Part shown: piece by piece, positions 15,232 to 64,000 of the stretch
Layout: the number at the start of each line of letters is the position of its first letter
How positions within the stretch are numbered: the first letter of the stretch is position 1
From: Tetrahymena thermophila SB210
Taxonomy: Eukaryota > Ciliophora > Oligohymenophorea > Hymenostomatida > Tetrahymenidae
Length of the DNA: 64,000 nt
Reading direction: 5' to 3'
Assembly: GCF_000189635.1 (NCBI RefSeq)
Contig: NW_002476570.1
Location: 558,001 to 622,000 of the forward strand
The notes under the pieces: generated by a model
The model's input: only the letters and a program-made list of their open reading frames with translations
Database searches by the model: none
What the model was told of the DNA's origin: nothing
Made by a program: the position numbers and the translations under genes

Positions 15232-15788
15232 TTTTAAATTTTATTTTTTTTATAATAAATTTATCTGTTTTTATGAAAAAGTAATAACTTTTAAAGTAGC
15301 AGTACTTAACATAGATTCAATTTAGAGCTTAAAGTAAGATTAATGGTTCTATCAAATTTATTTTTAATGTATTGTTAGTATATGATCATCTGCCTAATCA
15401 TATGATTAGATTTTCAATAATCAATTATGATAAATTACGATAAAATTTTTCATTTTTCCTATGTTTTCTTTTAATTGATTGATCAGAAATTTGTTTAAAA
15501 AATCTTTTAAATAAAAAAGTTATTTATACTATGGTCTAGAATTAATTTTGATCACAGACTATTTAAAAAAAACCAAATTACAAATTATTTCTTTTTGAAA
15601 ATATTTTATTTAAAAATATTTAATTAATTTGAAATTCAATGAATTGATTTTTAATAAATTCAATATTTTTATACCTTAAAATGATCAAAATTGGGGCTAT
15701 ATTTTGTTTATGGCAAATCATATTTTAGATATAGCAATCTTAATTCAAAGTATCATAGATTTTTTATTATTATCTATTTTTCATTGCA
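15232..15788. other. Intergenic DNA leading into the tandem array
   Basis: No gene is seen. From about 15,680 the sequence starts to resemble the region near 38,800, so the duplicated block probably begins here with indels, before the cleaner match at 15,789. Confidence 0.45.
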
Positions 15789-17214
15789 GAATTGGTGGTA
15801 TATATTTATCTGATCATACACCTATTCATATAAATTTGCTTTTAAGTTTTAATCAGTTTTAATATAAGAAAGTTTCTTGTGATCTTAATATTTATTCTTT
15901 CAGTTTTAAAAGTGTTATATATTTGTATTATTTTAATTGAAAAGAAGGTAATTTTTTATTAAAATTTAATTTATTACATTTCTCAAAAATGGTAATTATT
16001 TAAAATAAAATATAGTTTTAACTTTGTATTGAAATTGTAAATGATGAATTCAAATTATTTATGCTACAAAGGATAAGTGAAAAACTATTATTAATTAATT
16101 TTAATGTCTTCCTATATCATTAAAAAGAAAAATAAAAAAATATTTCTAAAAAATTATTTAATTACTTAATGAAAAAAGCAAATAAAATTTTCACTTAATT
16201 TATTAGTTTTTTGTATAAATTTATTTAAGTTTGCTAATATCTTATTTTTTAAAAGTTACATCATAGCATATCTAGAGTTAAAAAAATTGGAACCTATAGC
16301 AATAGTTAGTAGTTTAGAAAATCACAAATTTAATTTTAATTTTTAACCTAATTTATTTAGATGCTTTTATATTTTAAAGTAATTTAACTTCAATAGTATA
16401 AAAGTAATAATAGAACTGAATATTTTTAGATTTTAATTACAATTATAATATTTAATATTAAGGATGATGCTTATTTGATATGTCCTTCGAGGTGCAGAGT
16501 TTTTTAGTTTTAAATACCAGAAAAAAAATGGATATTAGAAAAAAAACAATTAGAGTGATTAGATTTTTATTGGGAGAATGCTTTAGAAAATTTTTTACCA
16601 TAAAATATAAATTCAATAGTACTAACTAATTTGTTATTTATAAATTAAAACATAAAAGAATGAATGAAACTAAAAGATGTTTAATTTTGATCACCTCAAA
16701 TTAAAGATCACCTAATTTGAACTTTTAATTATACCTTATTTTTGAGAACTTTTGGTATTCGATTTTAAAAGCAAAAACCTATTTTAATTTATTTTTTAAA
16801 ATAATTTGTTTATTTAGATATTTAAGATCTATTTTAAGAAATAGTAAAACAAAGATGATATCATATTATTGAAAAATATTAAAAAAATTATATAATTAAA
16901 TTCATAAATTATGAATGTTAATTCTAATAGCAAACACTATAAATTGGAAGAAAAAAAATATAAATTTATAAATAATAAAACAAATTAAAATTTAATTTAC
17001 TTACTTTATAAAAAAGAAATGATATAAATTGTCAATAAGAAAAATAAATTTTATTATTTCTAAAGATTAATATTAATAACAAACGTATATGTAATCACCT
17101 CTAATTGTTATATTTATGAAAACCTAAATATTTTGTTGCTATTGATAAACAAAATTGAATTTTTATTATTTTTTATACCAAATTATTTATTACAAAAGCA
17201 AAAAAAAAAAATCA
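15789..17214 (+). repeat. Relic-bearing upstream block, copy 1 (before gene A)
   Basis: The block matches 38,984-40,419 closely and in the same orientation, through to the ATG of the following gene. Shared landmarks include a GGTGGTATATAT segment at the left edge and a family-gene relic in the middle. Both copies also share an A-rich leader just before the ATG. The last few hundred bases should contain the promoter of gene A. Confidence 0.85.
16255..16630 (+). pseudogene. Internally deleted relic of a giant surface-protein gene, copy 1
   Basis: The sequence resembles two distant parts of the type 2 giant genes joined together. The first part matches the end of exon 2, intron 2 and the first codons of exon 3 (equivalent to about 31,830-32,010 in gene B). 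The second matches the EphR-like cysteine module at the end of exon 4 (equivalent to about 36,370-36,530). About 4.3 kb of the parent is missing between them. Cysteine codons are largely lost and the reading is disrupted. It has no start, signal peptide or membrane domain, so it is a dead fragment. Confidence 0.72.
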
Positions 17215-20200
17215 ATGATAAGTTAAATTAAAAAGTTCTTAATTTTATAGTGTTTAACTTTTTATATTTTAGTTTTAGAAGTTGATAGCTAAAATTGTTA
17301 AAGTGCAGAGATTTATGATTTTGTAAAACAGCAATGCTAAAAATGTTTTGCTACTTGTGAGACTTGCAACGGGTTGACTTAAAATAATTGCTTGTAGTGT
17401 AAGAATAATTATTTTAGATATTCATTTGATAATAGCTGTTAATAAGAATGTAAAAAGGGAATGTATTTTAACTAAAAAACAAGTACTTGTGACTATTGCA
17501 AAGTATTTGGCTGTGATTTATGCAATTCAAATGAGCAATGTGTTCAATGTAGCTAAAACTTAAATTTTGATAAGTAATAAGGATGCATTTTAAATGAAAA
17601 CATATGTGACTAATAGTAATATTACTCAGTTTCTTCTAAATAATGTTCTTATGATTGCAGCAAAAATGAAATAAAAGATTAAAAAACAAAACTTTGTCTA
17701 CCCATTTAGAATTGTAACTACTTCCAAGAAACTGAAAATATCAATTATTTTTAAAATACTCCATTACTAAGCTTTTTAAATAATGGATACCTAATATAAG
17801 CAGATTAAATTTGTTAATTCTACCTCTATGATTAAAATCTAAATACTATTTATAATAAATTGTTAATTAAAAATCCATAAGTAAAAACAATCACAAACGG
17901 CCCTTAAAATTTTGTTGATGGAAACGTTATAGGGTGCCAAACTATATAACAAACGATTGCTTTTAACATTTTAACAAATTAAATAGAATTTGAATTAAGC
18001 ACTTAATAAAATATATTATATAGCCTATATAAAGTTTTTGTAGAGTACCACTTGTTAGTTTTGCAGTATAATTAAGGAGGATTTATAATTTATGACTACA
18101 TATAATAATAGACTATTTATAGAGAAGAAAACAAATACTACTTAGTATACTTTGAATTGATAAATACTTCCAAATAGATTTTTATCTGCTAGTTCTACTT
18201 AGGTTAATATGTAATTTTAAATATTATTTAATTTATTATTTACATTTATAAATTAATAGGTATATCAAAATGCGAAACTTTATTTAAGACAACAAAATTA
18301 AATGATTGAGTTAGATTAATAATTATTTACCTCATTTAATATCATTAATTTAGAATATATGGTTTTTTTTGCTATAAATTAAAGTTAAAACTAAGGCTAC
18401 TTTTTGTAAATTAACGAAGGAAATTTATCAGTCAATATAATGAATCAAATATAATTAGATAAATATTATTTATTTTTTTAGAATTAAGATTTAAATTTAG
18501 TTTGTGTTTAGGTATTACAATCTATGAGCATTTTTTACACATAAAAAGATAAAGTTGTGATGATAGCAAAAATAACTAATGATCTAGCTTCATAAGCAAA
18601 ACTTGTTACATTCTATTAGCAATCAAATTAGAATTAACCAATTATAATTATAGTAATTCAAATAAGCATTATGATTTTTTAATAATTAAACTATGATTAA
18701 TACAACGAATTTTAACTATCTAAAATGAATTAGCATTAATTATTTTTAGATAAGTTATTAAATTTTCAAACTTTAAGTGTTATTGATAACTAAATAATAT
18801 ATATTTTAAATATTAATAGCTAGATCTTTAAATTTTAATTCTAAATAATAGATGATAAAGTGTAAAAAAATAATATTCTCTCATAAATCAAATAAAATTA
18901 AGAAATATATTTTTATGATGATTAACCATTTTAGACAGATACAGTTAATAGCAGTATACTTTCACTCGTAAATAATAACAAAATCAGTTATGATTTAGTT
19001 AATCAAATATAATTTTACTTATACAATTTGTAATATTTCTATATTAAAAGAAGCTATAAAAGACCTATTTTATAAATAGATATTCCTTAATTTCTTCAAT
19101 TTGATATTTATTTGGGATTTAATCTAGTGCTTTATAATTTCTACATTTCACTAAACTAGTGTTAGATATTAATAAAAGATATTTTCCTTGGATAAATAAT
19201 ATTCAATTTATTTGATTAATGCTTTACTTCTGTATCATCTCTTGATACTTTTTATATTTAATAATAAGGACTTCTCTTTTAGAAATAGCCATTTGGTTTG
19301 TATAATATCAAAAATAATTCTAAAGTAGCTTAATTCTATAAATTTGATGTAGATTAATCAAGACAGATATCATTCTATAATTATAAAAATTAGAAGTTAT
19401 TATTTATTGATTAAAATGGAAATTTTTTTGGATTTGATCTCAATTCTTTTTAATAAGAATCATATTATAGTAGCTAAATTAAAGTAGCTACTGCCTTACT
19501 ATTATCTGATACATTCGTAAACGATAATTTAGGAAAGTAGGTTGTCTCTATAAATGATTCAATATACTTAATTATAAACAATTAGGAAATTTAAGAATTC
19601 TAACTACCCAATTATTAAATAAATAATTCTAGTTCACTCTAAATAGATTATTAAAACAAAGATTTTAGTTACTTAATTTACTCAGGATAAATTATTATTA
19701 TCAAAGGTAACGAAATAAAAATATACAACCAACAATTAGTTTTAACCTAAATAATAACAACTCCATTTGACTAAATTACAAAATCCCCATTTAATATAGA
19801 TAATTTTATATTTTTTGTTAGCTCAAACTTTTTATACCGCTTTGATTTAGTTTCATTACAAACATCTAAGTTACCAATAAATAAGATAATATATTATGAA
19901 GTGAAAATATTTAAAAACTATGAAATAGTTATAATTAGTTAATATATCATTTAATATAAGTTATTTATTTTATTAAATACTGAGGATTTTAAAACTGAAT
20001 CAATTTTTTTATCAAACGCTGATGATTAAATCTATTTTATGATTAGTGATAGAATGATAAAAATGGCAAAAAATATTTTTAATAATCCAATAGTATCTAT
20101 TGATCCAAAATAAAATTATTAAACATTAATTTCTTATTGGCTTGATGAAAATTTGTAGTACAGTTATACATATGACATAAAAAAGAGTTAGATTATAAAA

Positions 20201-23200
20201 ACTAATGTTTTGAAAAGTTAAATTGAAAATGTATTCAATTTTTATGAAACTTTTACTAATATATTTATTGATGCGTAAAATGATATATTTATTTATTTAT
20301 AAGATGATGGATCTCTAAAATTCTTTAATTATTAGCTAGATAGTGGTTAGGTAACTTTGGTACAAAAATTTTCTGTTATCAATAGAATAGAAATATGTTT
20401 TTAATAAAAACAAATAGTTGTTTAGACTTCTAAAAATCAAATTTTTATATACAACGTAATTTAGATTTAATTATTTTATTTTTAATTTTTAAATTTATTT
20501 TAAATTTAAAAGTATTTAGGAAATAATAATGGTATTTTTTTAGATTTAAGTGATATTTCACCACTTATTAACTAATAACAACCTCTAAGGTTTTAACTAT
20601 AATGCAAGAATAATCTTATTTACACTGAGTCACCTGTAGTCAAACTATTTAAATTAATTGATGGGTCTGTTAGTTCTTTTTAATTGGTAAATATTTTAAT
20701 AAATTTTTTAACCTATTTAATTTATTTATTTTTAATCAGTCTAATTACTTATAATATAAAAATAATTTGGGTTCTAGTCCTATCATAGATATATAAAATA
20801 AACTTATAATATACCCTCACAGTTATCTTAGCTAATATTTTTAGAAAGGCAACTAAATAATAGAGTATTAGTTATATAGTTATGTTTCTCCTTTTACTGA
20901 AATGTATTATGATATTTAAAATAATTACTTGATAGTGCTAAATGGAAGTGATAATTCTATTACAGTTGTTGACTATAACTAAGCTTTACAAAAATATAAG
21001 TATAATATTTAATCAAATTTCAAAAAAAATTTAACTTGCTTCATTCCTTAATAAAATATAATAATTCTAATTGACCAAACTCCTTAAGTATATAGTTACT
21101 ATTATCTCAAAAATGTTACAAATATTGTACCAATTTACTTTAATGAAATATCGTAAATTATACCAGACATTAACAATAATTTTATCTATATTTTAACTCA
21201 ATAATCTGTTCATGCCTTTAATTTCCCTTAAATAATCTATTATGAGACTTTATATGATAAGTTCAACTAAAATAATTCAAAGATTGATAAAGCACTACTG
21301 GCTACATAAATAAATACTTTATTTGTAGTTAGGTAAGATTAAGTGATTTTAACATATGATTTAATAGAATGTTTGATATAATAAGAAAAGAGTTTAATAA
21401 ATCAAATCTAAATTCAATTTATCTAGTTTAATAACTTTATTGTTACATACAATTTGTAAACTAGTTCTTTGCTGCTATTTAAAGATAGAGTCTTTCAGGA
21501 TGAGCTCTTGATAGATTTAGCATTTTTTACATTGCAGAAATGTGATTTATTTAAGATTGATGAACAAAGTTTCATTTTCATATCACCATTAAGAATCTTT
21601 AATATTTAAATAAACTTATAAAAAAATATTTTTTTAATTATTAATCAATTAGAAATAAATTAATCATACTCTGATGTCATATTTGATTTTTTCAATAAAA
21701 TCATAATATTTGCTGATTATTAGACAAAATAAGTCTATTTTTATTATATAAATAGTCAGACCTTGGTATTTTTTGACAATTTGTAAAGCAATTTCTAGTA
21801 AATATTAATCCAAAATAATAATATTATATACACTTTTGGAAACTTAATTACTTCTATAAATATAAATACAAGATAAAATAACCAATTAAAACTAGATAAC
21901 ACAAATATTACTTATATGGTGAAGTTAAGTTCTAATTAAACTAAATAATTAGATGATATTTATGAAAATATTAACTAATCAAATTATAATGATAATACAA
22001 ATGAAAGCTTAATTTTTATAGTAAAAAATGAAGAATAAACTATATATATAATTGATGCTTCTTAACTTATTGTGATTAATTTTGCTAAACTAGATTACTA
22101 AATTATTAATGTTGTTGTTGATTGGAAAAGGAGAATTATTTTCTGTGTTTCAAATATATCATTTACTTTTATTTATGATTTTGGTTTAAAATTACTATCT
22201 TAGATTAAGAACCCTTGCCTTGTAAGTGCTAGAATATTTTTCGATGATCAATTAATTATCTCAGTTTGTCCTAATTCAGTTTATTTTTATAATTCGCTCA
22301 CTTTAGTTAAATAAGAATACCAGATTAATACAGGGTTTACTAGTATTGAATATATTAAATCGTTTAACTCATAAAATACATTTATCTTATTAGAATAATA
22401 CTCAATTTACATTGTACAAATTTAATAAAGTAATGTTTAAATTTTGTTTTAGAAAAATAAATAAAGAATCTATATTTAAAGTGCAAGTATAATTTTTGAT
22501 GAAAACAATTAAAAATATTTCTAAATAGAAGGAATATCATGGACCGATATCATATATTATTTAATTCCTTATTAACCTTAAAATATATGTACATATAATT
22601 TAGGTTTGGAAAATCAAAATATGAATTCTTATTAAATTCAAAAAATATAATAAAATGCCAAATTTTCAAATCAAATAGTAGCATAAGTGTAAATTCAATT
22701 ATAAAATAATACCTAAATAACCAAATTTATGGATTTACAATAGTAAGATATTAAAATATAAGTTGTATTTTATACATATAATTACAATACATTAATATGG
22801 AATGATGGAAGTATTGTTGACGATCCGAATATAAGCTAGCTAGTAATTCATGATGCCTTGCTAAATGTTACAGATAAAATTATATTGAACTAAAATAATA
22901 ATATTGAGGAATTACTTTTATACAATGTAGTTTTAATTGGCATATAAAATTAAATTTTTTTAGAAAATATTCAAAAAGTAATATTTTCAAATCTAACCAT
23001 TTAATCATTCACAAGTTAACTTTAAAATTCTTAATAACCTTTGATAATTTTTAAAAACTGCAGTCAAATTATATTCAAAAATATCAACATAAATTATGTT
23101 AACTTAAATAACTAAACATTATTCCAATTTGAAAATATTACAAATTTAACGCTAAATAATGTAAGTGTAACTCATTCTATTTTTAGTTCTCTTCTTAAAA

Positions 23201-26200
23201 TAAACGAATCAATCCAAATCAATTTAAATCAAATAAATTTTAAAAATATAACTAATTATTCTTAAAGTTTAATAACAGCTGTTGTTGTAGAATAAATAAA
23301 TATTAGTACTTTAAGTATTTAACAAACAAATCAAAACTAAATTTTTAGCTTTTTAGGATGTAATAATATTTAATTGAGTCAAATAGTAGTTAAAAAAGTT
23401 CAAGATATTATAATTTTTTTAACATAACCCTATCAAAAAGTATTAATTTATCCTATTAGCAATCTGAAAATTGAATAACTTAACGTTTCTGATTCTTAAA
23501 ATGTTAGTTTTTAAATACAAGCAAATTCATCTTCAATTTTTAATTCACAGTTTAATAATATAAATTAAACAACTACAAATCTAATAAACTCTTAGCTCTC
23601 TAATATCGAAATAGTAGATTGTTATTTTTAGAACATAAAATTAAGTGAAGGTTATTCAAATCTTAAACTAATAAACTTTAATAATCTATTAATATAAAAA
23701 TCAAATTTTTAAGGGCACATAGGAAATTAGATTTATCTTCTAAATTAAAATGAAGGATTTTCAATTTAATTTATTAATTTAAAATTATTAGATAATATAT
23801 CTAATTAGAGTATTATTATTATTAACTTTGCATAAAAGTTAACTATTTAAAGTAGTGAATTTATAAACTAAATATCTAACCAAAATGGAGGTGCATTAAA
23901 TATTTAAAATACTGATTAATTGAATTTTAAAGATTCTAAATTTTAAATAAACTAATCTATTTTAGGAAATGGAGGTTCTTTGTTTCTCTATTAAATTTAA
24001 AATTTATTGATTTCTAACTGTAAATTCCTTGAGAATCAAGCATAAAGTTAATCAGGTGGAGCTGTGTATTTAGATTAAAATTAGTTAAAGACTACTACTT
24101 CCTCAATAATAAACAGCAATTTTTTATAAAATAAGGCTTTTTAAGGATTAGGTGGTGCTATTTTTATAAACAACTGTGATTTAAACTTAAAAAACACAAA
24201 TATATTGAATAATAAAGCAGCTATTGGTGGAGGAATATACTATTAATACATGATACCAGATATTATTTAAAGTAATTAAGTATTATTTAATAATAATACA
24301 GTAAAAGATAATGAATGTATTTTGTATGGTTAAAATATTGGTTCAACACTAAGAAAGATAGAGTTAGATTAAATAAGTAATCCTTAATTTATTGTAGAAA
24401 GAGGTGATTAATAATAAGTTGAGTCCATTATTGTTAGCAATTTTAGGAGCGGTGATTATATGTTCATTGATGATATTTAAATTTTAGATGAAGAAAATAA
24501 ATACTTTAAGTACAATCCCTTACTAAGTTATAGTCAAAGTGTAAATGAAATAATTTAATAAACAACTATGACAATAAATATATAAGCAAAAAGTGAAAAA
24601 ATGAATATATTTGGAGGAAATATTGCCACCTTTTAGAAAGGAAAATTTTCTTTTAATATTAGTCTATCTTATATTCCTAATCAAAGCTCGACTCTTTAAA
24701 TACAGTCTTAGATAATTCCTCCTCTCTATAATTCTAAGGGAATTTTATTTCTTTCTTAAAAGTAATTATCTTTGAATTTCAAAGTCGATTTTAGAAAATG
24801 TATAATTGGAGAAATTCAAAAAGATTTTTTTTCTTCAATTATTTGTGATCAATGTCCTGATGGAAAATATTCTCTTAGTCTAAATGATCAAAGTTGTTAA
24901 ATATGTCCTTCAACTGCAGTATCATGTTAAGGATCTATAATATAAGTAAAGAATGGGTTTTGGAGAAAAAATAATTAAACTGATTAAATTCTATATTGTT
25001 AAAATGCACCAAATAACTGCAAACCTTAAAATATAGAGTCAAAAGTAAGTATTAATTTTTATCATAAATTTAAAAAATTAAAAATAATTTATATCATAAA
25101 TTTAAAATAAAACCAATTAAATTCTTATAAATCATAGAATTTTAATTAAAATTTTTATAATAGTTTGGATGTGCAATTGGATATGTTGGTCCTTTGTGTG
25201 AATAATGTGATTTTTTGGGTGATGTTTGGGGATAAAGATACTCGACTATTTTCTATACATTTAAGTGTTCAAAGTGCTCAGATACTTTAATACTTTCTGG
25301 TATAACATAAGTAATATTTTTAGTGGTGTTAACTTTGTATATATACGCATGCAATAGAAAGATTATTAATTCAGTAGAAAGAGAATTATAAAACTATTAT
25401 CTTAAAATGATGGGTCTTATTTATCTCAATAATTCAGGTAAATATTAGTTAATTTAAAGTTATTTTAATTTTTTTTATATCAGTCTATAAGGCTAATTCT
25501 ACAGTATACTCAAAAATTTTGATTGATCACTTACAAATAATATCTATTTTAAGTAGTATTCCCTTCTAATTTCCTACTTTAATTTAAATTTCTTCAAATG
25601 TTGGAGGAAATCCTTTGCTGATTTAAACAAACATGTTTGATTGCTTTTACCCTAAAAGTATTAATATACCAAAATGGTTTGCTAAAGTAATGTGCTCATT
25701 AAGTCTGCCTTTTATCATTTACTTACTTAATTATCTTATAAATATTTTTTTTAAAGTAGTTTACAAGTAAAATACTCACTCTAGGTATTAGAAAACTACA
25801 ATGATTTTCTTTTATTTCTATTTCTATCCATCGATTTTATTTATTTTAATCAAATCAATAAATTGTATAAATATTGGAAATGAAAAATATGCTTAAATCG
25901 ACACTTTAATAGGATGTAGGAATTTTTCTGATCACTTTATTTATAATTTATTATTTAGCTTTCCAGCAATATTTGTGATATGTATTGCTCTCCCTCTTTT
26001 CTTGATTTATAAAGTGAGAAAAAACATAAATTAGAATCTCAATAAAATACAAAAGAGCTCTTACTAGTTCATTTATGAACCTTATAAGAATTAATACTAC
26101 TACTGGGAATTTATAAGATTATTTTACAAGAGTGCTGTTATGATTTCTTCAATAATTTTACAAGACTCCTTATCTTTGAAAGTAATTTTAATAAATGAAA

Positions 26201-27130
26201 TGAATTTTTACGAAATTATATTTTTAAAATATTAAAATCAGACTTGCATAGTAAATCAAATTCTAGTATTATACAATTACTTCCAAATGAAGGTCAGTCC
26301 ATTTACTAACAAGTTTCATAATCAATTAGAAACATAATCTATACTAATAAGTATTTCTACTCTAAATTTTGGTTTAGTATAGTCTTTGCTGATTGATGAA
26401 TTCTATATTCCAATCATAATATTTTAATTCTTTATTATAATCTTAAACTTCAATTTTATATTTAAGACACTCTTTTTAACTTTTGTAAGACCTATTCCTG
26501 CTATGAGATAAAATAGAAATATAATTTAATAATGTTTATTTAGTCTAAAAACATAATACCCATTATTATTTACCTTTATATAAATAGACTATAAAATAAA
26601 ATTCTCTACTGCTTTGAAAATCAAAAAACTAAAGTCTAAACTAAAAAATTATATTGAAATTGGAAATGAAAGATTAAGTGTCTATTAGACTTAACAAAGA
26701 TTATAGTCTTTGATACCTACCTAACTAAAATCACCAAATAGTTAATTTAGAATATCATTCTTTAGCCAATAAAATGATAATGAAACTATAAATACAGAGT
26801 TTGAAAATTTAAAGCAGGCTAATTAGCCTTTAACTCTACATAATAAATATTAGCTTTCAGCAAAGTTCAAATAATAAGGTATATTTAATGCTTAAATAAT
26901 TATTAAAATATCAATATAATTAAAATAGAATCATCTGTTGGTAGGTAAGATATATTTGATATTTAAAGTCCACAAAAATAGAATCATTTCTAATTCAGAT
27001 TACTAAATCTTAAAGGTAAATAAAAAAATTTATTCAAATACATACTTTATTTTATTAAAATTATTTTATCATAATAGATTAATAAAATGATGAAAGTATA
27101 TTAAAATAAAACGATAAAAGTATTAATTGA
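17215..27130 (+). CDS. Giant surface protein A (type 1): Cys-rich, beta-helix, multipass
   Basis: Encodes 3,139 residues in nine exons: 17215-18210, 18260-20455, 20513-20686, 20740-25044, 25164-25437, 25484-26181, 26242-26878, 26929-27015 and 27078-27130. They sum to 9,420 nt with every phase consistent. The ATG opens a signal peptide (MISQIKKFLILQCLTFYILV). Residues about 30-220 are a furin/GFR-like module of CxxC knots. About 300-1,800 is Asn/Gln/Ile-rich with propeller-like strands. About 1,800-2,310 reads as a right-handed beta-helix with Pmp-type repeats (NGGALNIQN, SGGAVYLDQN, LGGAIFINN, IGGGIYYQ). An EphR-like module follows (CPDGKYS, CQICPS), then an EGF-like knot (FGCAIGYVGPLCEQCD) opening exon 5. 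Roughly eight to ten membrane helices (about 2,610-3,000) carry the signatures CRNFSDHF, KNQYYYWEFIRLFYKS and NQLETQSIL. The tail is Gln-rich. Ciliate genomes encode many such proteins; their function is unknown, and a surface receptor or channel-like sensor is inference. Confidence 0.88.
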
Positions 27131-27356
27131 TCATTTAATTTATTTGTATTAATTTATTAATTATTTATTAAGTAAATATTTTTTTTGGATAATAATATTT
27201 TCATTTAATTACACTTAAATATTAATTTAGCTTACAAAATAAGATGCAAGTTTATTTTTTTAAACTATCTTTTAAATTTCATAGTTATATAAACTTTTTA
27301 GTCTTAATTTAAGATAAGCATAATGAAACATATTAATAAATATAGCTGTTCCTGCG

Positions 27357-27402
27357 TTTGAAATATCACAGATCATGATATCATGATTTGTGATATTTCA
27401 AA
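27357..27402. repeat. 46-bp near-perfect palindrome without spacer
   Basis: Two 23-bp arms meet directly at ATGAT/ATCAT and are reverse complements except at one position: the left arm has CACAG where the right arm implies CACAA. It starts TTTGAAATATCACA and ends TGTGATATTTCAAA. It could form a cruciform. It lies in the segment present only in unit 1. Confidence 0.92.
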
Positions 27403-27605
27403 TAATTTTTACATTACTAATGAACATTTTTTTTTTCTAAATCTTAATTATTTTGTTTATATTTGATTTCTTATATTTTACAAAAATTAATCAAAATACA
27501 GAAACCTTTTTTCAAAAAAATCTATTTAATAATAAGTGCCATCCAAATCACAAAATTTTTAAATGGCATCTTGCTATATATATTTGTATGTTATTTAGAT
27601 ACAAC

Positions 27606-28305: not shown

Positions 28306-28439
28306 CAATTTATTCTTGGATATCTTTCTACTTTAATGTTTATTTAAAAGACAATATCAAAGTAATCATTAATCTATTGTGTTTAAAAATGACTAGATTT
28401 TAATTTTATAAACAAAAATTAATTATAACTTCTAATTTT

Positions 28440-49400: not shown

Positions 49401-50341
49401 TTTATTAAATAAAATTAAATTTTACCAAATTATATTTTTAAAATATTAAAATCAGACTTGCATAATAAATCAAATTCTAATATTATACAATTACTTCTAA
49501 ATGAAGGTCAGTCCATTTACTAACAAGTTTCATAATGAATTAGAAACTTAATCTATACTAATAAGTATTTCAACTCTAAATTTTTGTTTAGCATAGTCTT
49601 TGCTGATTGATGAATTCTATACTCCAATCATAATATTTTAATTCTTAATTATAATCTTAAACTTCAATTTTATATTTAAGACACTATTTTTAACTTTTGT
49701 AAGACCTATTCCTGCTATGAAAGAAAATAGAAATATAATTTAATAATGTTTGTATAGTCTAAAAACATAATACCCATCATTATTTACCTTTATATAAATA
49801 GACTATAAAATAAAATTTTCTACAGCTTTGAAAATCAAAAAACTAAAGTCCAAATTAAAAATTTATATTGAAATTGGAAATGAAAAATTTAGCGTCTATT
49901 AGACTTAACAAAAATAATAATAGTCTTCGATACCTACCTAACTAAAATCACCAAATAATTAGTTTAGAATATCATTCTTTAGTTAATAAATTGAAAATGA
50001 AACTATAAATACAGAGTTTGAAAATTTAAAGCAGCCTTATTAGCCTTAAACTCTACAGAATAAATATTAGCTTTAAGCAAAGTTCAAATAATAAGGTATA
50101 TTTAATTTTTAAAGAGTTTTTAAAATATAAATATAATTAAAATAGAATCATCTTTAGGCAGGTAAGATATATTTGATTTTTAGAGTCCACAAAAATAGAA
50201 TCATTTCTAATTCAGATTACTAAATCTTAAAGGTAAATAAAAATTAATTGAAATACTTTATTTTATTAAAATTATTTTATTGTACTAGATCAATAAACTG
50301 ATGAAAGTATATTAAAATAAAATGATAAAAGTATGAATTGA
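40420..50341 (+). CDS. Giant surface protein C (type 1): Cys-rich, beta-helix, multipass
   Basis: Encodes 3,140 residues in nine exons: 40420-41415, 41471-43663, 43723-43896, 43951-48258, 48374-48647, 48694-49391, 49456-50095, 50146-50232 and 50289-50341. The sum is 9,423 nt, in frame. The signal peptide begins MISQIKKLLILQCLTFYI. Domain order is as in gene A, its closest copy: N-terminal CxxC knots (CLKCFGTCETCNGL), propeller-like region, beta-helix repeats around 47,100-47,460, EphR-like and EGF-like modules, multipass domain and Gln-rich tail. Similarity to A is uneven. Long stretches around 45,020-45,350 and 47,620-48,240 are nearly identical to A, while other parts carry many amino-acid changes. 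Exon lengths differ from A by whole codons only, which argues for purifying selection on the reading frame. Confidence 0.87.
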
Positions 50342-50756: not shown

Positions 50757-50859
50757 AATTTTAGGATTAACTCAGCTCTAATATTTGAATTTAAAAGTAG
50801 AAAACTATTTATTACTTCTATTTTCATTCTTTGACTAGAGATCATATTTAAATTATTAT

Positions 50860-51069: not shown

Positions 51070-54000
51070 ATGATGAATCAAAGAAGCAAATATTCTTTCA
51101 CAAAACTTTTAACTTTTTATATTTATATATAAATAGTTTTTAGTTAAAACTGTCTTAATGATGGAGAAATCTATGATTTTGTATCATAGAAATGTCTAAA
51201 ATGTGATGATCATTGTAACACATGTAGTGGATTAACTTAAAATGATTGCTTGACTTGCATGAATAACTATTATAGATAGGGAGTTGATAATTCTTGCAAA
51301 GAAAAATGCGGTTTGGGAATGTATATAAACCAAAAAACAAATACATGCGATATTTGCTCAGTGTTGGGTTGTGATTAATGTCTTTAAAATTAAAGGTGCA
51401 TTAAATGCACTGATAATTTGAAATTAGATGAAAAATCTGGATGTCTCTTAAATGATAATACATGCGATTAATAATAATACTATTCATTATTTTAAAAGTA
51501 ATGCTCTTATTAATGCAGCAAAAATGAAATAAAAGATTAAAATACATAATTGTGTGTCCCGATTTAAAATTGCAACTATTTCCAAGAAATGCAAAAAAAG
51601 GATTTTTTCTAATCGATTTCAGTACAGACCTTTATTGATAACGGATTTCTATTAATGGGGGATTCTACATGTTAGTTCTACCTTTACAATTTAAATCTTG
51701 AGACTGTTTATTCAAATTTATTAGTTTAAAATCCACTAGATAAAACAATTGTTTATGGTTCATCAAATTTTTATGACAGAAATGTAGGAGGATGTTAAAC
51801 AAAGCAAAAATTAATTGGATTCAATTTTTTAACTTATAAAATAGAATTCGAAATAAGTAATGAATTTAATATTTTTTATAGTCTTTACTAACTAGATGTA
51901 GAGAATCATCTATTAGTTTTACAGAAGAATTAAGGAGGTTTTACATTTTTTGACTATTTAAATAATGAATAGATTCTCATAGAAACAAGTAATTTATATA
52001 TTTTTTAATATATGAGCATAAATTCTTCTTAGCAAATTTATTTGTATCAGAGCACTAATATTTAAAATGTAAATTTTTAATTTAAAATTTAATAGTTGAT
52101 ACATTTGTTTTTAATTTAAAGGAAATTTAAAGTGCTGTGCTTTATTTTAGAAAAGAAAATAAAATAATTAAATTTGATCAAAAATTTCGCTCTATATATG
52201 TTGCAAACCTCTAAAATATGATTTTTTTTGCTACTGATTCTAAATAATAAGGATATTTTTTTCAATTTGATTAAGCATTGCTATCAACTAAAATAATCTT
52301 AGAAATAAATATTGATTACAGCTCTTAATATTTTTTTGATGAGGACTAAAAGTTATTTTATATTTAAGGACATACTAATTCAATAGTATATTATATTCAA
52401 AAAGATAATGTTCTACCTATCTATAAAATTATTAATGATATTAAATCTATTTCTTTAGCATTTACTTTTTATTAATAATAAAATACTAATTAAACTTCAA
52501 TAATCGTGGCTTTTGCAAATTTAATAGTATTTGACTAATTAAATTATTAATAATACAAAGAAAGTTAATTATCAGCTATTTTAAAGTATAGTTTTGATTT
52601 AAATAAAGATTTTTTATCATCAATGTCTTTAATAGTTATGAAGAATTAGGTCTTTTATATCTTAAATAATAATAATTAAATTTTTTATATTGAATTTGAA
52701 ATAAATGATTAGAATTTGGAAATGAAAAAAATAATTACATCAAATAAACAAAGCTAAGAAATAATTTTATAAAATGATTACATATTTAAGTTATAAAAAA
52801 GTGATAGTAATACTTGCATTTTAGTTGATTTAAATCAATTATAATTTGATTTGGTGACTTATATCACATACTATTTGTATAATTTATAAAACTTTTAAAT
52901 TAAAAGAAGTTTTATAAGATCTTATTAAGATATTTTTTTATCTTAAATTAAGTAGCGTTAAATGTATTTAGGAAATAATAAGCATCTTTATTCTGTATTG
53001 ATTCAAAGTTCCTTGTGTTAAATCATAATAAAAGATATTTTACTTGGATAAATCATTTTTAATATCAATGATAAATGCTTTTCTAATTTATCATAAGTTG
53101 ATACTTTTTACTTTGAATAACCAGGATATCTTTTTTAGAGATAACCTTTCACTTTGTATAATACCATTCTGAATTTTAAAGTGAAAGAATTCTATCAATT
53201 TGACGACACATATGCAATAACGGTGACTTTCTTTACTTTTTAAAATAAAAAATTGCTTTTTATAGATTAAAAAGGATAATTTTTTGGATTTGACCTTATT
53301 AATTTAAAGCAAGAATTTTATATAAATAACGAAAATACACTTGTAAATAGCTTACTTTTTTCAAATAATCTTTTAAATGGCGAAGTTAGATAGTTACCAG
53401 CATCTTTAAATAACTCTATTTATTTAATTATTAATAATTAATTAATTTAGGAATTCCAATTAGATATAAAGTCAATCAACAATAGTAATTAAATTTAATT
53501 AGATTATGTAAATACAGTTTTCTAGTGCATTCTTTATTAAGGATAAATTCTTATTATCATTAATAAAGAAATTCGAGTTTACAATTAATAATTACTACTG
53601 ATTAATAAAATAATTATTCCATTTGATTATCTAACAAAAATTAATGTCTTTAATATTGATAGATTTTTATTTTTTATTGGCTCAAGCTTTTTTTACTAAT
53701 TTGATTTAATTTAGCTCAAGACAAATTAATTGCAAATAATAATATCAAAATCTGCTCCTACAATCTTATATGAAAATTAAGAAATATTAATAATTGGAAA
53801 ATTTGTTATTCAATATAGGCTTTTTATCTTATTAAATACTTAGACTTTTGAGCATACTAATAATCTATTATCAAATATAAATGACTTAACATATTTTAGA
53901 ATATAAGATAATATTTTAAAAATGGCTAAAAATATTTAAAATATTCCAATATCAAATATAGATTAAAGGTAAAATAATTATGTACTAATTAAAACTTGGT

Positions 54001-57000
54001 TTAGTGAAACTTTATAGTTGAGTTATTATTATGATACAATAAAAAAATAGATAATAAAAATGCATGTTTTGAAGAATTAAATACTTAAAGTATTTAATTT
54101 TGCTGATTTTTTTACACAAATAATAGTAGATGCATATTAAGATATCTTTATATATTCTTAAATAGATGGATCTGTAAAAATTTTCAACCCTAACTTAGCA
54201 AACGGATAAGTATATTTGGTATAAAAATTTACTGGAATAAAAAGAATTGAAATATGTTATTAATAACAATAACTTGTTGTTTAGACAACCACAAATTAAA
54301 TTTTTATTTTTAACGTAATTTATTTATTTTTTGCTTACTTATTTTAAAGTAATTTAATTTTTATAGTATCAAGGAAATAATTCAACTGGAATATTTTTAG
54401 ATTTAAGTGACATTACGCCTTTTATCACAACAAAATATACTCTTTCATTTTAAATCCAATGTTAAAATAATTTAATCTTTACTTAGTCTCCTTACCTGAA
54501 ACTATTTAATTTAACTGATGGATCAATTGGCTCTTTTTAATTAGTAAATTCATTAAAAATCATAGATTATATTAATGTAATAAAATATTTTTTTATATTT
54601 AGGCTGATTACTTATCATACAGAAACAACTTAAATTCTAATCCTATAATAGATGTACAGAACTAGCTTATAATTTACCCCCATAGCAAATTTAGCTAATA
54701 CTATTAGAAAGGTTCTTAATAAATAGAATATTAATTATACAGTTATGTTTCTCCGAACACTGAAATGTACTATGATCTTTAAAATAATTAGTTAATTGTA
54801 CTAATTGGTAGTAATAAACTAATAACAGTTGTGGATTATAACTAAGCTTTGCAAAAGTATAATTACAACACTCAATCTAGTTTTTTCAAAAATTTGACTT
54901 GTTTCATTCCTTAAAATAATTTAATAATTTTAATTGATTAAACTCCTTAAATATATACTTACTATTACCTCACAAATATAACAAATATTGTGCAAATCTA
55001 TTAAAGTCAAATTATTTAAATAATACCTGATATTAATAATAATCTCATTTACATTTCAACTCAGTAATTTGTCCATGCCTTTACTTATCCTGATATGATA
55101 TATTATGAAGCTTTGTATGATAAATTCAACTAGAACAATTCAAATATTAATATAACGTAATTAGTTCCATAGATAAATACTTTGCTCGTTGTAAGGTAAG
55201 ATACAGTTATTTTAGTGTACGATCTGATTGAATCTTTAGTTTAAAAAGAAACAAGTTTTATCAACTAAATGTCAGTTTAATATATTTAATTTAATAACTT
55301 TATAGTAACTTATAATTTGTAAACCAGTTCTTTGTTACTCTTTAAAGAAAGAATCTTTTAGGATGAAATCTTATTAGATTTGGCATTTTATTCACTATAG
55401 AAGTGTGATATATTTAAGATCGATGAATCAAGCTTCATTTTCATAACACCTTTTAAAATCTATTAAATTTAGATAAATCTTTAATAAAATAAGCTTTAGA
55501 TTTAAAATTTATATGAAATAAAATAAACTTTTACGGATATCTTATTCGATTTTATGAATAAAACATTTATATTAGTTAATTAATAGGCAAAATAGATAGC
55601 TTTTTATGAAATTAATAATAACAATTTAACATCAGTTACTAATATATAGGATAATTACTAATAAATATTAATCTAATAAAATAATGTTATCTATTCTTTT
55701 AATAATTCTATAGTTTCTAATCCAATCTCAGTTTCAAATTTTAGTTAAAATAATATTTTAAAATTAGGTACAACTAAAATTTCCTACATGATAAAGTTAA
55801 GCTCTGATAATAGTAAATAGATAGATGATAGATTTGAAGAAATTAATTAATCAAATTATTATGACACTTCAGATGAAAGTTTAGTTTTTATAATCCAAAA
55901 TGAAGAAAAAACCATCTACATAATTGATACTACTCATTTTAATGTGATTAGTTTTACCTAAATAGATTATTAAATTGTTAATGTTGTTATTGATAGAAAT
56001 AGAAGGATAATTTTCTGTGTTTCAAATATATCAAAAACTTATATATTTGATTTTAATTTGAAACTACTATCTTAAATTTAGAACCCTTGTCTTATAAATG
56101 CTAAAATATATTTTGATGGCCAATTAATTTACTCAGTTTGTCCTAATTCAGTTTATTTTTATAATTCTCTAACTTTAGCTAAATAAAGCTTTCAAATTAA
56201 TTCTGGATTTAATAGTATTGATTATATAAAGTCTTTTAATTAATAAAATACATTTTTATTAATTTAATAAGACTCAGTTTACATTATTCAATTTTAATAA
56301 AATAATAATAGCTTCAAAATTTTATTTTAGAAGAATAAATAAAAAATTAATATCTAGAGTGCTAGTATAATTTTTGATAATAATAATTAAAAATATTTCC
56401 AAATACAAGGAATATCATGGAGCGATGTCATTTATTATTTGATACCTTATCAACCTTAAAGCGAGTGTACAGCAAATTTATTATCATAAAATTCTTATAT
56501 GATTTCTTAATAAATTTAAAGCATCTAATAAAATGCATATTCATCAAACCAAACTGTATCTTAAGTATAAATTCAATTTTAAAATGATTAAGAAATACAT
56601 AAGATAACGAATTTAATAAATTAAAAAATTCAAATAGAAACAGTTATTTATACATAAAATTACAATTAATTAGTATGGAGTGATGGTAGTATCATTGATG
56701 ACCCTAATATAGGTGAACTAGTTATTCATGATGCATAACTAAATATTACAAATAAGCTAATGTTGAACTAAAATAATAACATTAATTAAATACTATTAAA
56801 AAACATAAATTTAATTGACATATAAAATTAAGTTGTTTTTGAAAATATTCCAAAAGTGATATTTTCAAACATAACCATCAAATCAATCATAAGTTATCAA
56901 TAATATTTTTAATAGCCCTTAGTTACTTTTAAAAATTGTAGTGAAGTGATATTAGATAACATTATTATAAATAATGTTAACATCAATAATTAAACATTCT

Positions 57001-60000
57001 TTTCACTTGAAAATGTTTCAAATTTAATAATCAAAAATTTAAATGTTAGCAATTCTATTTTCAGCTCTCTTTTTTACATTATTGAATCTTAGTAGATTTA
57101 TTTTAAGTAATTGAGTTTTTAAAATATAACAAATTAATTTGAAAGTATTATCATTGCAATAGCTGTATAATAAACAGATATTAGCTATTTACGTATCTTA
57201 CAAACAAATCGAAATTAAGTTTTAAGCTTATAAGGATGCTATGATATAAATTTGAGTAATGTTACTGTTAGAGATGCATAAGACATCATACTTTTATAGA
57301 CTTAAGATTATATAAACACATATATTTATCCTATAAATAATCTTACAATGTCATATTTTGATATTTCAAATTCTTAAAATATAGGATTTATTATTTAGGC
57401 CAATTAATCTACAATTTTTAATTCTCAGTTTACAAATTTGAATTAGACGGCCACCAATCTTATTAATTCTAAACTTTCTAATATTCGAATATTTGAATGT
57501 AACTTTTAGAGTATAAATTTGAGCTAAGGATATTAAATTCTTAGATTGATAAACTTTAACAATCTATTGATTGAATAGTCAAAATTTTTAGGAAATTTAG
57601 GTAACTTGATTTATCTCCTCAATTAAAATGAAGGATTTTTCATAGTATTTAGTAATTTGTAATTAAAAGATAATATATCTGAACAGTAAAGCAATATTTT
57701 AATTAACTTTGCATTAAAATTAATAATCTAAAATAGTAGTTTTATAAATTAAATATCTTGGTTAAACGGAGGTGCATTAAATGTTTAAAACATTGATGAA
57801 TTATATATAACTGAATCAAAATTTTAGATAAATTAATCTGTTTTAGGAAATGGAGGTTCTTTGTTTCTTTATCAAATTCAAAATTTATATATCTCAAACT
57901 CTGATTTCTTTGAAAACTAATCATAAACTGAATCAGGAGGAGCAGTATTTTTAGATTAAAATTAATTAAAGTCAACAAATTCTTCTATAATAAATTGTAA
58001 TTTTTAAAAAAATATTGCAATCTAAGGATTAGGTGGTGCTATTTATATTAATAATTGTGACTTAAATTTAAAAAGAACTAATATTTTAAATAATAGAGCA
58101 TCTATTGGAGGAGGAATTTACTATTAGAAAATGATACCGAGTATTATTTAGTAAAATTTAATTTAATTTAATGACAATACAGTGAAAGATAATGGATGCG
58201 TATTGTATGGCTAAAATATAGGTTCAACACTTAGAAAGTTATTGCTAAACATTAATAAAGATCTTAAAACGATTGTTGTAGAAGGAGATTTTTCTTAAAA
58301 TGAGCCTATGATTGTTAAGAATTTCAGAAGTGGTGATTATTTAGTACTGGATGATATTTAGATAGTAGATGAAGAAAATTATAATTTTAAGTATGATCCT
58401 TTACTTAAATATAGTAAAAGTGCTACAGAAATAATATAACAAACTACTTTGAGTATTAACATGTAAAATAAAAGTGAAAAAATGAATATATTTGGAGGAA
58501 TTATAGTAACTTATTAGAAAGGAAAGTTTTCTTTTAATGTAAGTCTTTCTTATATTCCAAATGAAAGTTCAAAATTTTAGATATTATCTTAAACAATACC
58601 AGCTCTTTATGATTATAAAGGAAATTTATTTTTAGAATAAAAGTAGTTATATCTCAATTTAAAAGTTGATTTTAGATAATGCATAACAGGAGAAGTGCAA
58701 AAATAATTTTTCTCATCTATCATTTGTGATTAATGCCCTGATGGTAAATATTCTTTAAACGTTAATGATCAGGCTTGTTAGATTTGTCCGTCCTAAGCTG
58801 TTGAGTGTTTTGGTTCTTAAATACATGTAAAAAATGGATATTGGAAAAAAAATAATCAGAGTGATTTGATTATTTATTGTGAGAATGCTCCAGAAAATTG
58901 TTAACCACAAAGCTTGAGATCAAAAGTATTTATTTCTTTTTTATAAATTTTTTTAATTTTAGATGAAAATATTATTAACACTCTTTTAAATTTGAAAAAG
59001 AAGTGAAATAAATATATTTAATATAATTTTATTTTAAATATTTATATTATAGTTTGGATGTGCTGAAGGCTATGTTGGTCCTTTGTGTGAATAATGTGAT
59101 TTTTTTGGTAATGTTTGGGGATAAAGATACTCGACTACATTCAAAACATTTAATTGTTCCAAATGCTCAGATATGTTAGTATTAGCAGGTTTCGAATAAG
59201 CAATATTCATAATTTTTCTAACTTTATACATCTACATATGTAATAGAAAGATCATTAACTAAATAGAAAGAGATCTATAAAATTACTATATTAAAATGAT
59301 GGGTCTGATTTATCTCAGCAATTCTGGTAAAAATATATTAAATTTAAAAATATTATATTATTTTTATTTTTATTAGTATATAAGACTAATTCTACAGTAT
59401 GTTCAAAGATTCTAATTGACCATTTGCAAGTAATATCTATTTTAAGTAGCCTTTCATTCTAATTTCCTACTATTATTTAATTTTCATCAAATGTTGGAGG
59501 AAATCCTTTACTTATATAAACTAACATATTTGATTGCTTTTATCCTAGTGAAATTAGAATTCCTAAGTGGTTTGCTAAAGTAATTTGCTCATTAAGTCTG
59601 CCTTTTGTTATTTATTTACTTAATTAAATAATAAACATTTTATTAAAAGTATTTTACAAGAAAAATACTCATTAGAGGTATTAGAAAAGTACGATGATTT
59701 TCTTTTATTTCTATTTTTATCCATCTATGATATTCGTATTAATAAAATCAATAAATTGTATAAATATTGGAAATCAAAAATATGCTTAAATCGACACTTT
59801 GATAAGCTGTAGGGATTTTTCTGAACACTTTTTTTATAACTTAATTTTTAGCTTTCCAGTTATAATTGTGGCATGTGTTGCCATCCCATTTTATTTTATT
59901 CATAAAGTAAGATAAAATATTAATTTAAATCTCTCTAAAATATAAAAGAGTTCTTATTAGTTTATTTATGAACCATATAAGAACTAATACTACTACTGGG

Positions 60001-61024
60001 AATTTGTTAGATTGTTGTATAAGAGTGCTGTTATGATTTCTTCAATATTTTTGTAAGAGTATCTTTCTTTAAAGGTAAATTAAATATTATGTAACCAAAT
60101 TTTATTTAATAACTAATATAAATATAATAAATAAGACTTGCATAGTTAATTAGATATTGATATTGTACAATTACATTTAGATGAGAATTAATCCGTTTAC
60201 TCATTAGCTACATAATCAATTGGAGAATTAGTCTATACTAATAAGTATTTCAACTATGAATTTCTGCTTAGTTTAGTCTTTGATAACTGACTAATATTAT
60301 ACTGTGGTTATTCTTTTTTAATTGGTTATAATTATGTTAAATCTATATTTTATATTGAAACTGGTGTTTTTAACATTTGTTAAGCCTATTTCTCCAAATA
60401 AGTAAAACAGAAACTTATTTTAAGAGTGTCTTTATAAAATGAAGACTAAATATCCTTAGATTTTTAAATTTGTATTAATAGATTCTACTATTAGATTTAA
60501 AACAGCTTTGAAAATTAAAAAATTAAGACTTTAACTAAAGAGTATATATGAAACTAGAATAGAAAGATCAAGTGCTATTAATACAGGTTTAAAATAATCA
60601 TAACAATCTATGATATTTAATTCACGAAAAATAACAAATTAATTTAAGGTATAGCTTTTTAGCTAATAAGCTGATTATGAAACTATAAACAGTGAATTTG
60701 ATAATTTAAAGCAATCACAACAACCACTATCACTTTAGACTAAATATTAGCTTTCTCCAAAACTTAAAAATCAAGGTATTATTATCCATTAAATAATTTT
60801 TTTAATAGTTAATAACATTATAATTAGATTCCACCCTTTATAGATAAGAAACGAGTGATTTTTATTAGAATTCATCGAGATAGAACAATTTTTAGTTTAG
60901 ATTGATAAATTTTTAAGGTAGATATTAACTTAAATGTTTTATTTTTATAATATAAATTTTTATTATAATAGATTAAAACCAAGATGAAGTAGTTGAAAAA
61001 TAAATAAATTAAGCTCAATGGTGA
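51070..61024 (+). CDS. Giant surface protein D (type 2): Cys-rich, beta-helix, multipass
   Basis: Encodes 3,148 residues in nine exons: 51070-52068, 52122-54314, 54367-54543, 54603-58925, 59053-59326, 59377-60074, 60136-60775, 60828-60917 and 60972-61024. The sum is 9,447 nt, in frame, with TGA stop. The protein begins MMNQRSKYSFTKLLTFYIYI, a signal peptide, then CLKCDDHCNTCSGL. Exons 2 to 9 have exactly the lengths of those in gene B; exon 1 is one codon longer, as in gene E. Beta-helix repeats (NGGALN, GGSLFLYQ, SGGAVFLDQN, LGGAIYINN, GGGIYYQ) lie around 57,760-58,130. The EphR-like CDQCPDGKYSLN comes next, and exon 5 opens with FGCAEGYVGPLCEQCD. The multipass domain carries YYYWEFVRLLYKSAV. 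It is presumably a plasma-membrane protein with a huge extracellular part. Function unknown. Confidence 0.87.
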
Positions 61025-62049: not shown

Positions 62050-62263
62050 TATTAAATTAGATGAAAATTAATTTAAATATAAATAGAATTTTTATTTGAT
62101 GGAGGATTATACATTTGAATTTTATTATATTACAAATTATTGAAAGTTTTTTGTTATTTATTAACTGAGTTAATTTTTGATTGATATTATTAAATCTAAA
62201 ATTCTATTGGCTAACTTTTGATTATAGTTAATTAAATTAAAAAAAAGGCAAAAAAATTTATAT
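62050..62263 (+). promoter_or_regulatory. Conserved leader of type 2 genes, copy before gene E
   Basis: Nearly the same as 50,860-51,069. The match begins abruptly near GATGAAAATTAATTTAAATA and continues into gene E, marking the left edge of the D-to-E duplication in this window. Confidence 0.55.
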
Positions 62264-64000
62264 ATGATAAAACAAAAAAGCAAATATTCTTTCACAAAAC
62301 TTTTAACTTTTTATATTTATATATAAATAGTTTGTAGCTAAAACTGTCTTAATGCTGGAGAAATCTATGATTTTATATCATAAAAATGTTTAAAATGTGA
62401 TGATCATTGTAACACATGTAGTGGATTAACTTAAAATGATTGCTTGACTTGTATGAATAACTATTATAGATAGGGAGTTGATAATTCTTGCTAAGAAAAA
62501 TGCGGTTTGGGAATGTATATAAACCAAAAAACAAATACGTGTGATATTTGCTCAGTTTTAGGTTGTGATTAATGTCTTTAAAATTAAAGATGTATTAAAT
62601 GCACTGAAAGTTTGAAATTAGATTAATAATCTGGATGTCTCTTAAATGATGATACATGCGATTAATAATAATACTATTCATTATTTTTAAAATAATGCTC
62701 TTATTAATGCAACAAAAATGAAATAAAAGATTTAAATACTAAACTGTGTGAACCGATTTAGAATTGCAACTATTTCCAAGAAAGACAAAAAAAGGATTTT
62801 TTCTAATAAATTTCAGTACAGACCTTTATTGATAATGGTTTTCTATTAATAGGGGAGTCGATATGTTAGTTCTACCTTTATAATTAAAATCTTGAGACTA
62901 TTTATTCAAATCTATTAGTCTAAAATCCTTTAGATAAAACAGTTTTTTATGGTTCATCAAATTTTTATGACAGAAATGTAGGAGGATGTTAAACAAAGCA
63001 AAAATTAATTGGATTCAATTTTTTAACTTATCAAATAGAATTCGATATAAGTAATGAATTTAATACTTTTTATAGTCTTTACTAACTAGATGTAGAGAAT
63101 CATATATTAGTTTTACAGAAGAATTAAGGAGGATTTACATTTTTAGACTATTTAAATAATGAATAGATTCTTATAGAAACAAGTAATTTATATATTTATA
63201 AATATATGAGCATAAATTCTTCTTAGCAAATTTATTTGTATGAGAGCTATAATAATGAAAATGTAAATTTTTAATTTAAAATTTTATAGTTGATATTTTT
63301 TGTTTTTAATTTAAAGGAAAGTTAAAGTGCGGTGCTTTATTTTAGAAAAGAAAATAAAATAATTAATTTAGATAAATAATATTACCATATATAGGTTTTA
63401 AACTTCTAAAATATGATTTTTTTTGCTACTGATTCTAAAACATAAGGATATTTTTTCCAATTTGATTAAGCCTCGCTATCCACTAAAATATTGTTAGAAA
63501 TAAATATTGATTATGCCTATTTAAATTTTTTTAATGAGGACTTATAGTTATTTTATATTTCTGGAATTTAAAATTCAATCATATATTATATTTAAAAAGA
63601 TAATATTCTACCGATCTATAAAATTATAAATGACATTAGATCGATCTCTTTTACTCTTACGTTTTATTAATCATAAAATACTAATTAAACTTCAATAATT
63701 GTAGCTTTAACCAATTTAATAGCCATTGACTAATTAAATTATTAAAAATACAAACAAAGTTCATTATCAACTATTATGAAGTATAATTTAGATTTAGATC
63801 AAGATTTATAGTCAATATCTTTAATAATTATGAAGAATTAGGTGTTATATATTTTAAATAATTATAATAATATACTTTTTTATATTTAATTTGAAATAAA
63901 TGATTAGAATTTGGAGATGAAAAAAATTCTTACTTCAAGTAAACAAAGCTAAGAAATAATATTATAAAATGATTCCATAATTTAGTTATAAATAAGCGAT
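62264..64000 (+). CDS. Giant surface protein E (type 2), 5' part, runs off the window
   Basis: The first exon is 62264-63262 (999 nt, same length as in D), the intron is 63263-63316 (54 bp), and exon 2 is open from 63317 to the window end with no in-frame TGA. About 560 residues are visible. The signal peptide region begins MIKQKSKYSFTKLLTFYIYI. CxxC knots follow (CLKCDDHCNTCSGL, CLTCMNNYYR, CDICSVLGCDQC), then the module containing QNCNYFQE and the start of the propeller-like region. It is closer to D than to B. Small differences from D, including codon changes in the cysteine spacer regions, show it is a separate gene and not an assembly echo. Confidence 0.85.

Follow-up and report, generated by a model that had tools for sequence, protein, structure and literature searches.

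The described systems closest to the locus studied here, a tandem array of five giant receptor-like genes (A to E) in a 64,000-nucleotide stretch of the Tetrahymena thermophila SB210 genome (the window; bases 558001-622000 of contig NW_002476570.1, here called C10, of 811,479 bp), are the CRMPs, the proteins of the mating complex and the fungal TRP-like proteins. CRMPs carry Cys-rich domains and nine helices, and Ephrin-receptor-like, EGF, furin and parallel beta-helix modules appear in the figure key of the same source (PMC9815656). Their membrane helices are also given as five in Tetrahymena and nine in Apicomplexa; TtCRMP1 and TtCRMP2 are required for mucocyst discharge, and CRMPs were proposed to act as contact sensors (PMC9670195). 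MTA, MTB and MRC1 of the mating complex carry five helices and a GFR domain (PMC10901506). Fungal TRP-like proteins were found with the Pfam model PF06011, and fission-yeast Pkd2 and Trp1322 are reported to be Ca2+-permeable (PMC8618638).

Our preferred reading, held with slightly better than even confidence, is that A to E may be paralogous, constrained genes for giant receptors at the cell surface, all from a single large superfamily of ciliates, and that they would form an expanded group of CRMP-like sensors of contact or of ligands, which perhaps gate calcium. The gene models, the size of the family in the genome, the domain architecture, the relatives of the membrane core and the pattern of constraint were used to evaluate this reading.

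Gene models of the array

For the gene models, a purpose-built gene-finding hidden Markov model (HMM) was combined with an alignment of the copies. Translation with the bacterial code gives no open reading frame (ORF) of 150 amino acids across the whole window. With code 6, the ciliate code in which TAA and TAG encode glutamine, many long exons are open. Five giant receptor-like genes in head-to-tail order, as stated in the original prediction, were recovered. All of them are located on the plus strand and contain seven exons and six introns at matching positions, with introns of about 46-130 bp, a length of about 9.8 kb per gene and 3128-3163 codons (the 3' end of B being provisional). The genes start at window positions 17215, 28673, 40420, 51070 and 62264, which corresponds to spacings of 11458, 11747, 10650 and 11194 bp. 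A to D lie completely within the window and E runs past its end to about 72.0 kb.

Gene A (type 1; 17215..27090, 3163 codons) is composed of the exons 17215-18210, 18260-20455, 20513-20686, 20740-25044, 25164-25437, 25484-26181 and 26242 to about 27090. Gene B (type 2) covers 28673..38433, where 38433 is the position at which the model was cut; its 3' end is provisional because the reading frame continues without a stop as far as 3300 codons. A small additional 3' intron was also offered by the gene finder in A and in B. Gene C (type 1; 40420..50301) has 3162 codons and gene D (type 2; 51070..60858) has 3128. The first part of gene E (type 2) occupies 62264..64000. Its frame of 3128 codons is open apart from one in-frame TGA at codon 570 (about position 64025, just past the window), which may indicate a recent pseudogene, a sequence error or a recoded codon.

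The copies are unlikely to result from an assembly duplication. C10 starts with CCCCAA repeats and finishes with GGGGTT repeats and therefore looks like a complete macronuclear chromosome. Furthermore, the long DNA matches between the copies are only 91.3% identical for A-C and 89.5% for B-D.

A large gene family in the Tetrahymena genome

The genome searched comprises 101.0 Mb in 445 contigs. A telomerase fragment that it encodes agrees with the T. thermophila PDB chains 2r4g and 5c9h in 101 of 102 aligned residues, the exception being the first residue at the margin of the alignment, which makes this species very likely. With the membrane exon of D (232 aa) at least 151 matches at E ≤ 0.01 were found, which is a lower bound since 150 of 398 candidates were scored. 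The 150 places used for clustering are distributed over 71 contigs. Grouping of neighbours on the same strand within 20 kb placed 88 of the 150 places into 30 clusters of 2-5, with a median spacing of 11.86 kb. The number of neighbour pairs is 58, compared to about 2 expected for 150 genes scattered randomly over 101 Mb and both strands. Hence, the array A-E is one of many, as 30 clusters were obtained from a part of the candidates. A second cluster with four membrane exons of the superfamily is located on the minus strand of C10 itself, near the right chromosome end (C10:738658-775459). The membrane exons C31:14535 and C31:27784 show end branches of zero length in the tree described below and would represent either very recent duplicates or conversion.

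Not only the membrane exon is shared. Each of the 30 best-scoring loci has matches to the Cys end, exon 5, exon 6 and exon 7 in this order, two of them with a part of exon 5. Exon 4 of D has at least 33 matches (32 of 368 candidates scored), and 20 of the 28 matches outside the array span at least 1,350 of its 1,441 residues in one exon. For the N-terminal Cys exon of D at least 55 matches at E ≤ 1e-4 were obtained (150 of 198 candidates scored); 21 of the best 28 outside the array are followed by a membrane exon on the same strand 8.0-9.5 kb downstream. A tree of the 30 best-scoring membrane exons unites the five array genes with a support of 100/99, so that, within this set, every copy has its closest relatives in the array itself. 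The nearest relative outside the array is uncertain, since the long branches C437 and C9, which meet, were flagged by the tree program.

The family had been thought to be undescribed. We found no account of the array or of the whole family in a literature search that covered title lists, the opening lines of abstracts and single passages and missed most subscription journals, and the available parts of PMC4501334 and PMC7398496 add nothing on this receptor family. On the other hand, GFR-domain genes are listed among the expanded species-specific genes of Tetrahymena, often in tandem and weakly expressed (PMC6564038), and similar designs were described for CRMPs and MRC2 (PMC9670195, PMC9815656, PMC10901506), so that the claim holds only in part.

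Domain architecture

The proteins begin with a Cys-rich domain at the N terminus, which is followed by a variable head and a beta-rich stretch. Next come a beta-helix of the pectin-lyase type and Eph-receptor/EGF-like knots, and the C-terminal part consists of a multipass core and a tail. The predicted combination of Cys-rich knots, beta-helix, EphR/EGF-like knots and multipass membrane domain is present, the Cys domains mostly by Pfam matches below the cut-off. The following coordinates refer to gene D (plus strand). The Cys-rich N-terminal domain (51151..51573) contains 21 Cys in residues 28-168. It is called GFR/furin-like here, a label of our own that was chosen from the arrangement of the Cys residues and from a weak match to VSP below the Pfam cut-off. 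The variable head is encoded by exon 2 (52122..54314), for which a genome search revealed just one weak partial match beyond the array. The beta-rich stretch in the first part of exon 4 (54603..56672) was modelled with low confidence. As the mean predicted local distance difference test score (pLDDT) is 43 and the 50 listed Foldseek rows, mainly WD40-type propellers, have TM-scores of at most 0.25, a propeller fold should be taken as a hint only.

For positions 56706..58085 of exon 4, the structure model and its matches show a right-handed parallel beta-helix with a pectin-lyase-type fold. It resembles tailspikes, sugar lyases and an autotransporter. Among the tables giving bit scores, only the Chlam_PMP repeats at the end of the D beta-helix exceed the Pfam cut-off; a tblastn search of exon 4 of A against phages gave no match. 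The Eph-receptor-like/EGF-like Cys knots (58680..59166, residues about 2483-2602) extend from the end of exon 4 into the start of exon 5. Of 20 family members, 19 contain NCD3G and 18 contain Ephrin_rec_like at E ≤ 0.1; the matches of D are below the curated cut-offs. Matches of the Cys region to PDB entries are weak, with values of 0.015 for EphB2 and of 0.79 and above for the calcium-sensing receptor, and a Kringle domain was not found in the scanned exons of A and D. The multipass membrane core (59167..60393, residues about 2602-2974) is encoded by exons 5-7 and is followed by the tail. The last exon of D shows single weak Pfam matches to DUF3902 and AA_permease_2, and the Pfam scan recognised no signalling domain in the final exon of either A or D. 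Each array protein contains 40-49 N-glycosylation sequons.

The array proteins might also be surface adhesins or coat proteins, with a beta-rich ectodomain that binds prey, matrix or partner cells and a core that is a mere anchor without signalling. The likeness of the beta-helix to tailspikes, sugar lyases and an autotransporter, the many sequons and the last exons of A and D would fit this function. The core, however, is well conserved, with identities of 93.9% for A-C, 93.9% for B-D and 90.9% for D-E, and 24 columns of the main core exon are invariant in 28 family members, which seems to be more than an anchor needs. In addition, the core is probably related to a channel-like family, as described below. 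We therefore regard adhesins or coat proteins as possible but doubtful.

Relatives of the membrane core

The curated cut-off of PF06011 is 28.5 bits. A search of the whole genome with this model, in which all 51 candidates were scored, gave 12 matches at E ≤ 0.01. Four of them exceed the cut-off and three of these four are clustered on the minus strand of C176 (C176:438106-467546), about 13 and 16 kb apart. The ORF retrieved from this C176 cluster reaches 31.2 bits and covers positions 156-400 of the 426 positions of the model, its C-terminal half. Weaker matches on C338 (23.0 bits) and C262 (22.3 bits) overlap with matches of the family membrane exon.

A further relative, gene Z, is located upstream of the array. 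Its probable 3' end is found at 1..464 on the plus strand, and the provisional model starts at window position -10319 (about 547.7-558.46 kb of C10). Z appears as a divergent sixth member with about 25% identity to the array proteins over approximately the C-terminal 750 residues before the tail, and its membrane ORF matches PF06011 with 5.4e-5, which is below the curated cut-off. A profile of 28 family membrane exons finds C338 (2.4e-29), C262 (6e-28), Z (2e-18) and C176 (5.9e-17); the database size was set to 100,000 for this search and none of the shuffled or reversed decoys was reported. The profile of the Cys end finds the same four as well (C176 with 7.4e-8), with 0.23 for the best decoy. 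Since C176, C338, C262 and Z form a bridge between the family and PF06011, the core is tied to TRP-like proteins by a chain and not directly. These matches support a distant relationship of the membrane core to the PF06011 TRP-like (Flc/Pkd2-like) proteins via intermediate genes.

Subtypes and duplication history

The order type 1, type 2, type 1, type 2, type 2 holds. Protein identity is 87.9% for A-C, 85.5% for B-D, 90.5% for D-E and 84.5% for B-E, compared to 61-62% between the types, with A and C as type 1 and B, D and E as type 2. The synonymous divergence (dS) amounts to 0.136 for A-C, 0.253 for B-D, 0.131 for D-E, 0.246 for B-E and 0.93-0.98 between the types. According to these values, the types were separated long ago, B then split from the D/E line, and the pairs A/C and D/E are the youngest and of similar age.

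The array had been explained by a simple duplication of a 23.2-kb two-gene unit, and this part of the original prediction is not supported. If A+B had simply been duplicated to give C+D, the pairs B-D and A-C would be of equal age, and B-D is older. By dS, D and E are sisters over most of the gene, and the distance from A to C (23,205 bp) differs from that between B and D (22,397 bp). The flanks point in the same direction. The upstream flank of A and the spacer between B and C match for 1.5 kb (82%). In the 3' flanks, A and C are alike for 345 bp (90%); in the 5' flanks, D and E are alike for 215 bp (90%). Downstream of B, D and E, a stretch of 220-280 bp is shared by all three, and D and E have another 158 bp in common. 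On the basis of dS and flanks we reject the duplication of the two-gene unit as a single event. The A-B spacer contains, at window 27576-28378, a local tandem repeat of about 450 bp whose copies are 80% alike, and none was seen in the C-D spacer.

Along most of the gene, the sites that distinguish B, D and E favour a grouping of D with E, and in codons 2700-3000 B+D is slightly in excess. The tree of exon 6, a membrane exon, taken alone pairs D with B (support 88/85). For D-E the longest run of agreement extends over 26 informative sites (codons 960-1055), and for A-C over 80 polymorphic sites (codons 1467-1536); none of 2000 permutations reached either length. The permutation p value is 0.0035 for B-D and 0.0525 for B-E. 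Uneven selection is not part of the model of this permutation test for conversion. The array copies are mosaics, which we read as the product of repeated tandem duplication and conversion. Alternatively, a block may have been duplicated first and D later converted by E.

Constraint and the state of gene E

The ratio of non-synonymous to synonymous divergence (dN/dS) is 0.26-0.43 across all ten gene pairs, which indicates that the array is under constraint; positive selection on the whole protein was not seen in any of the ten pairs. dN/dS peaks in the head (0.60-0.76 for A-C, codons 200-800) and in the tail and is low in the Cys knots and the membrane core. Likewise, identity between the types is 48% in the head and 76% in the membrane core. 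Windows with values above 1 (A-C 1400-1600 and D-E 800-1000) result from a very low dS and fit conversion. The suggested role of the array as a source of diversity agrees with the mosaic blocks and the faster-changing head, though no whole-gene dN/dS exceeds 0.43.

The branch of E carries 111 non-synonymous changes, 79 synonymous changes and one stop, compared to 79, 85 and 0 on the branch of D (Fisher p 0.055), a hint that constraint on gene E may be loosening. The in-frame stop and the larger non-synonymous share of E would be expected if the array consisted mostly of non-functional duplicates and was drifting. Drift of this kind is very unlikely in view of the low dN/dS of all ten pairs, the absence of in-frame stops in A-D across at least 3,128 codons and the preserved splice sites.

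Proposed function

If the array encodes receptors of the preferred kind, head and stalk would project from the surface of the cell or cilium, where they would bind either a ligand or a second surface. This might alter the membrane core and lead to Ca2+ entry or to a signal through the tail, a mode that was also suggested for CRMPs as contact sensors in the discharge of secretory organelles. Tandem duplication and conversion between neighbours would vary the head, while stalk and membrane core would be kept. A function in self-recognition is no more likely than one in sensing contact or the environment.

Several observations weigh against this reading. The structure models are poor everywhere except for the beta-helix, and Foldseek alone gave no beta-helix match at E ≤ 0.001. 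The approximately 6-8 hydrophobic segments of the core were counted from hydropathy only, and by the same measure a signal-peptide-like start is clear in A and C only. No match to PF06011 was obtained for the scanned exons of A and D, the 28 family membrane exons or the spliced D core, and a comparison of the membrane core with PDB sequences gave no relative. The exon-7 profile finds C338 alone (1.1e-12) and not C176, C262 or Z. The channel idea thus follows a chain of homology between membrane proteins, where composition can mislead. Finally, the stop and the additional non-synonymous change in E imply that not every copy need be active.

A bolder version of the receptor reading can be formulated, which seems rather unlikely in its full extent. 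It would comprise well over 100 giant receptors with a channel-like (TRP/Flc-like) core, a beta-helix stalk and an array-specific head that is renewed by duplication and conversion. Recognition would be tied to ion flow, and the sensors of mating recognition as well as the CRMP sensors of exocytosis would have arisen from the family. If the receptor reading is true, a very large family of a model eukaryote would consist of giant contact or ligand sensors with a membrane part near TRP-like channels. This would provide a testable link between prey and partner sensing in ciliates, mating-complex signalling and the contact-secretion coupling by CRMPs, and the array would be a clean place for following receptor diversification.

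Neighbouring features

Besides gene Z and the array, the window contains a tRNA-Val (AAC) at 3458-3530 on the plus strand. Between Z and A, a WD40-repeat ORF (4467-5228, plus strand) and an AAA-ATPase ORF (11140-11919, minus strand) were identified. C2 and copine domains are encoded downstream of the array on the minus strand (L011:6230-8489).

Comparison with known systems

Cys-rich surface domains in gene families are common to the variant surface proteins of Giardia, the Ser antigens of Tetrahymena and the array. The Ser proteins are described as glycosylphosphatidylinositol-linked (PMC4136848), unlike the multipass array proteins.

MTA/MTB and MRC1 share a GFR/furin-like Cys domain and a multipass end with the array. 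MTA and MTB form a head-to-head pair with the GFR domain in the terminal exon and are assembled by DNA rearrangement (PMC3608545, PMC10901506). In contrast, the array genes are arranged head to tail, are complete in the macronuclear chromosome and contain one Cys domain in exon 1. Gene order and position of the GFR-like domain rule out a gene pair of the MTA/MTB type. MRC2 is closer in design, being a multipass protein with eight helices and a pectin-lyase fold (PMC10901506). This fold is present in the array and, with about 6-8 segments, the helix number may be similar, a likeness taken from the published description and not from the sequence of MRC2. The array could thus encode MRC2-related mating or self-recognition receptors, whose diversity would serve cell-cell recognition. 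We consider this improbable, because the members of the complex have 92-212 kDa, far below array proteins of about 3,130 aa, and because of the different gene order of MTA/MTB. MRC2 does not exceed 212 kDa, and the long head and the N-terminal Cys domain of the array proteins are not mentioned for MRC2 in the available text of PMC10901506.

With regard to the PF06011 TRP-like proteins, the family relatives C176, C338, C262 and Z match the C-terminal half of the model, whereas the array proteins give no direct match. A giant ectodomain of the array kind is not known from fungal PF06011 proteins.

The CRMPs were compared by their published descriptions and not by their sequences. The number of helices is 5 in TtCRMP1/2, 9 in apicomplexan CRMPs and about 6-8 in the array by hydropathy. 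Two CRMPs are given for T. gondii, four for Plasmodium and many for Chromera in the available sources, compared to at least 150 membrane exons in the array family. CRMPs and array proteins are both large, carry EGF-, Ephrin-receptor-like and furin-type Cys modules and possess a multipass C-terminal core beside EGF-like domains (PMC9815656, PMC9670195).

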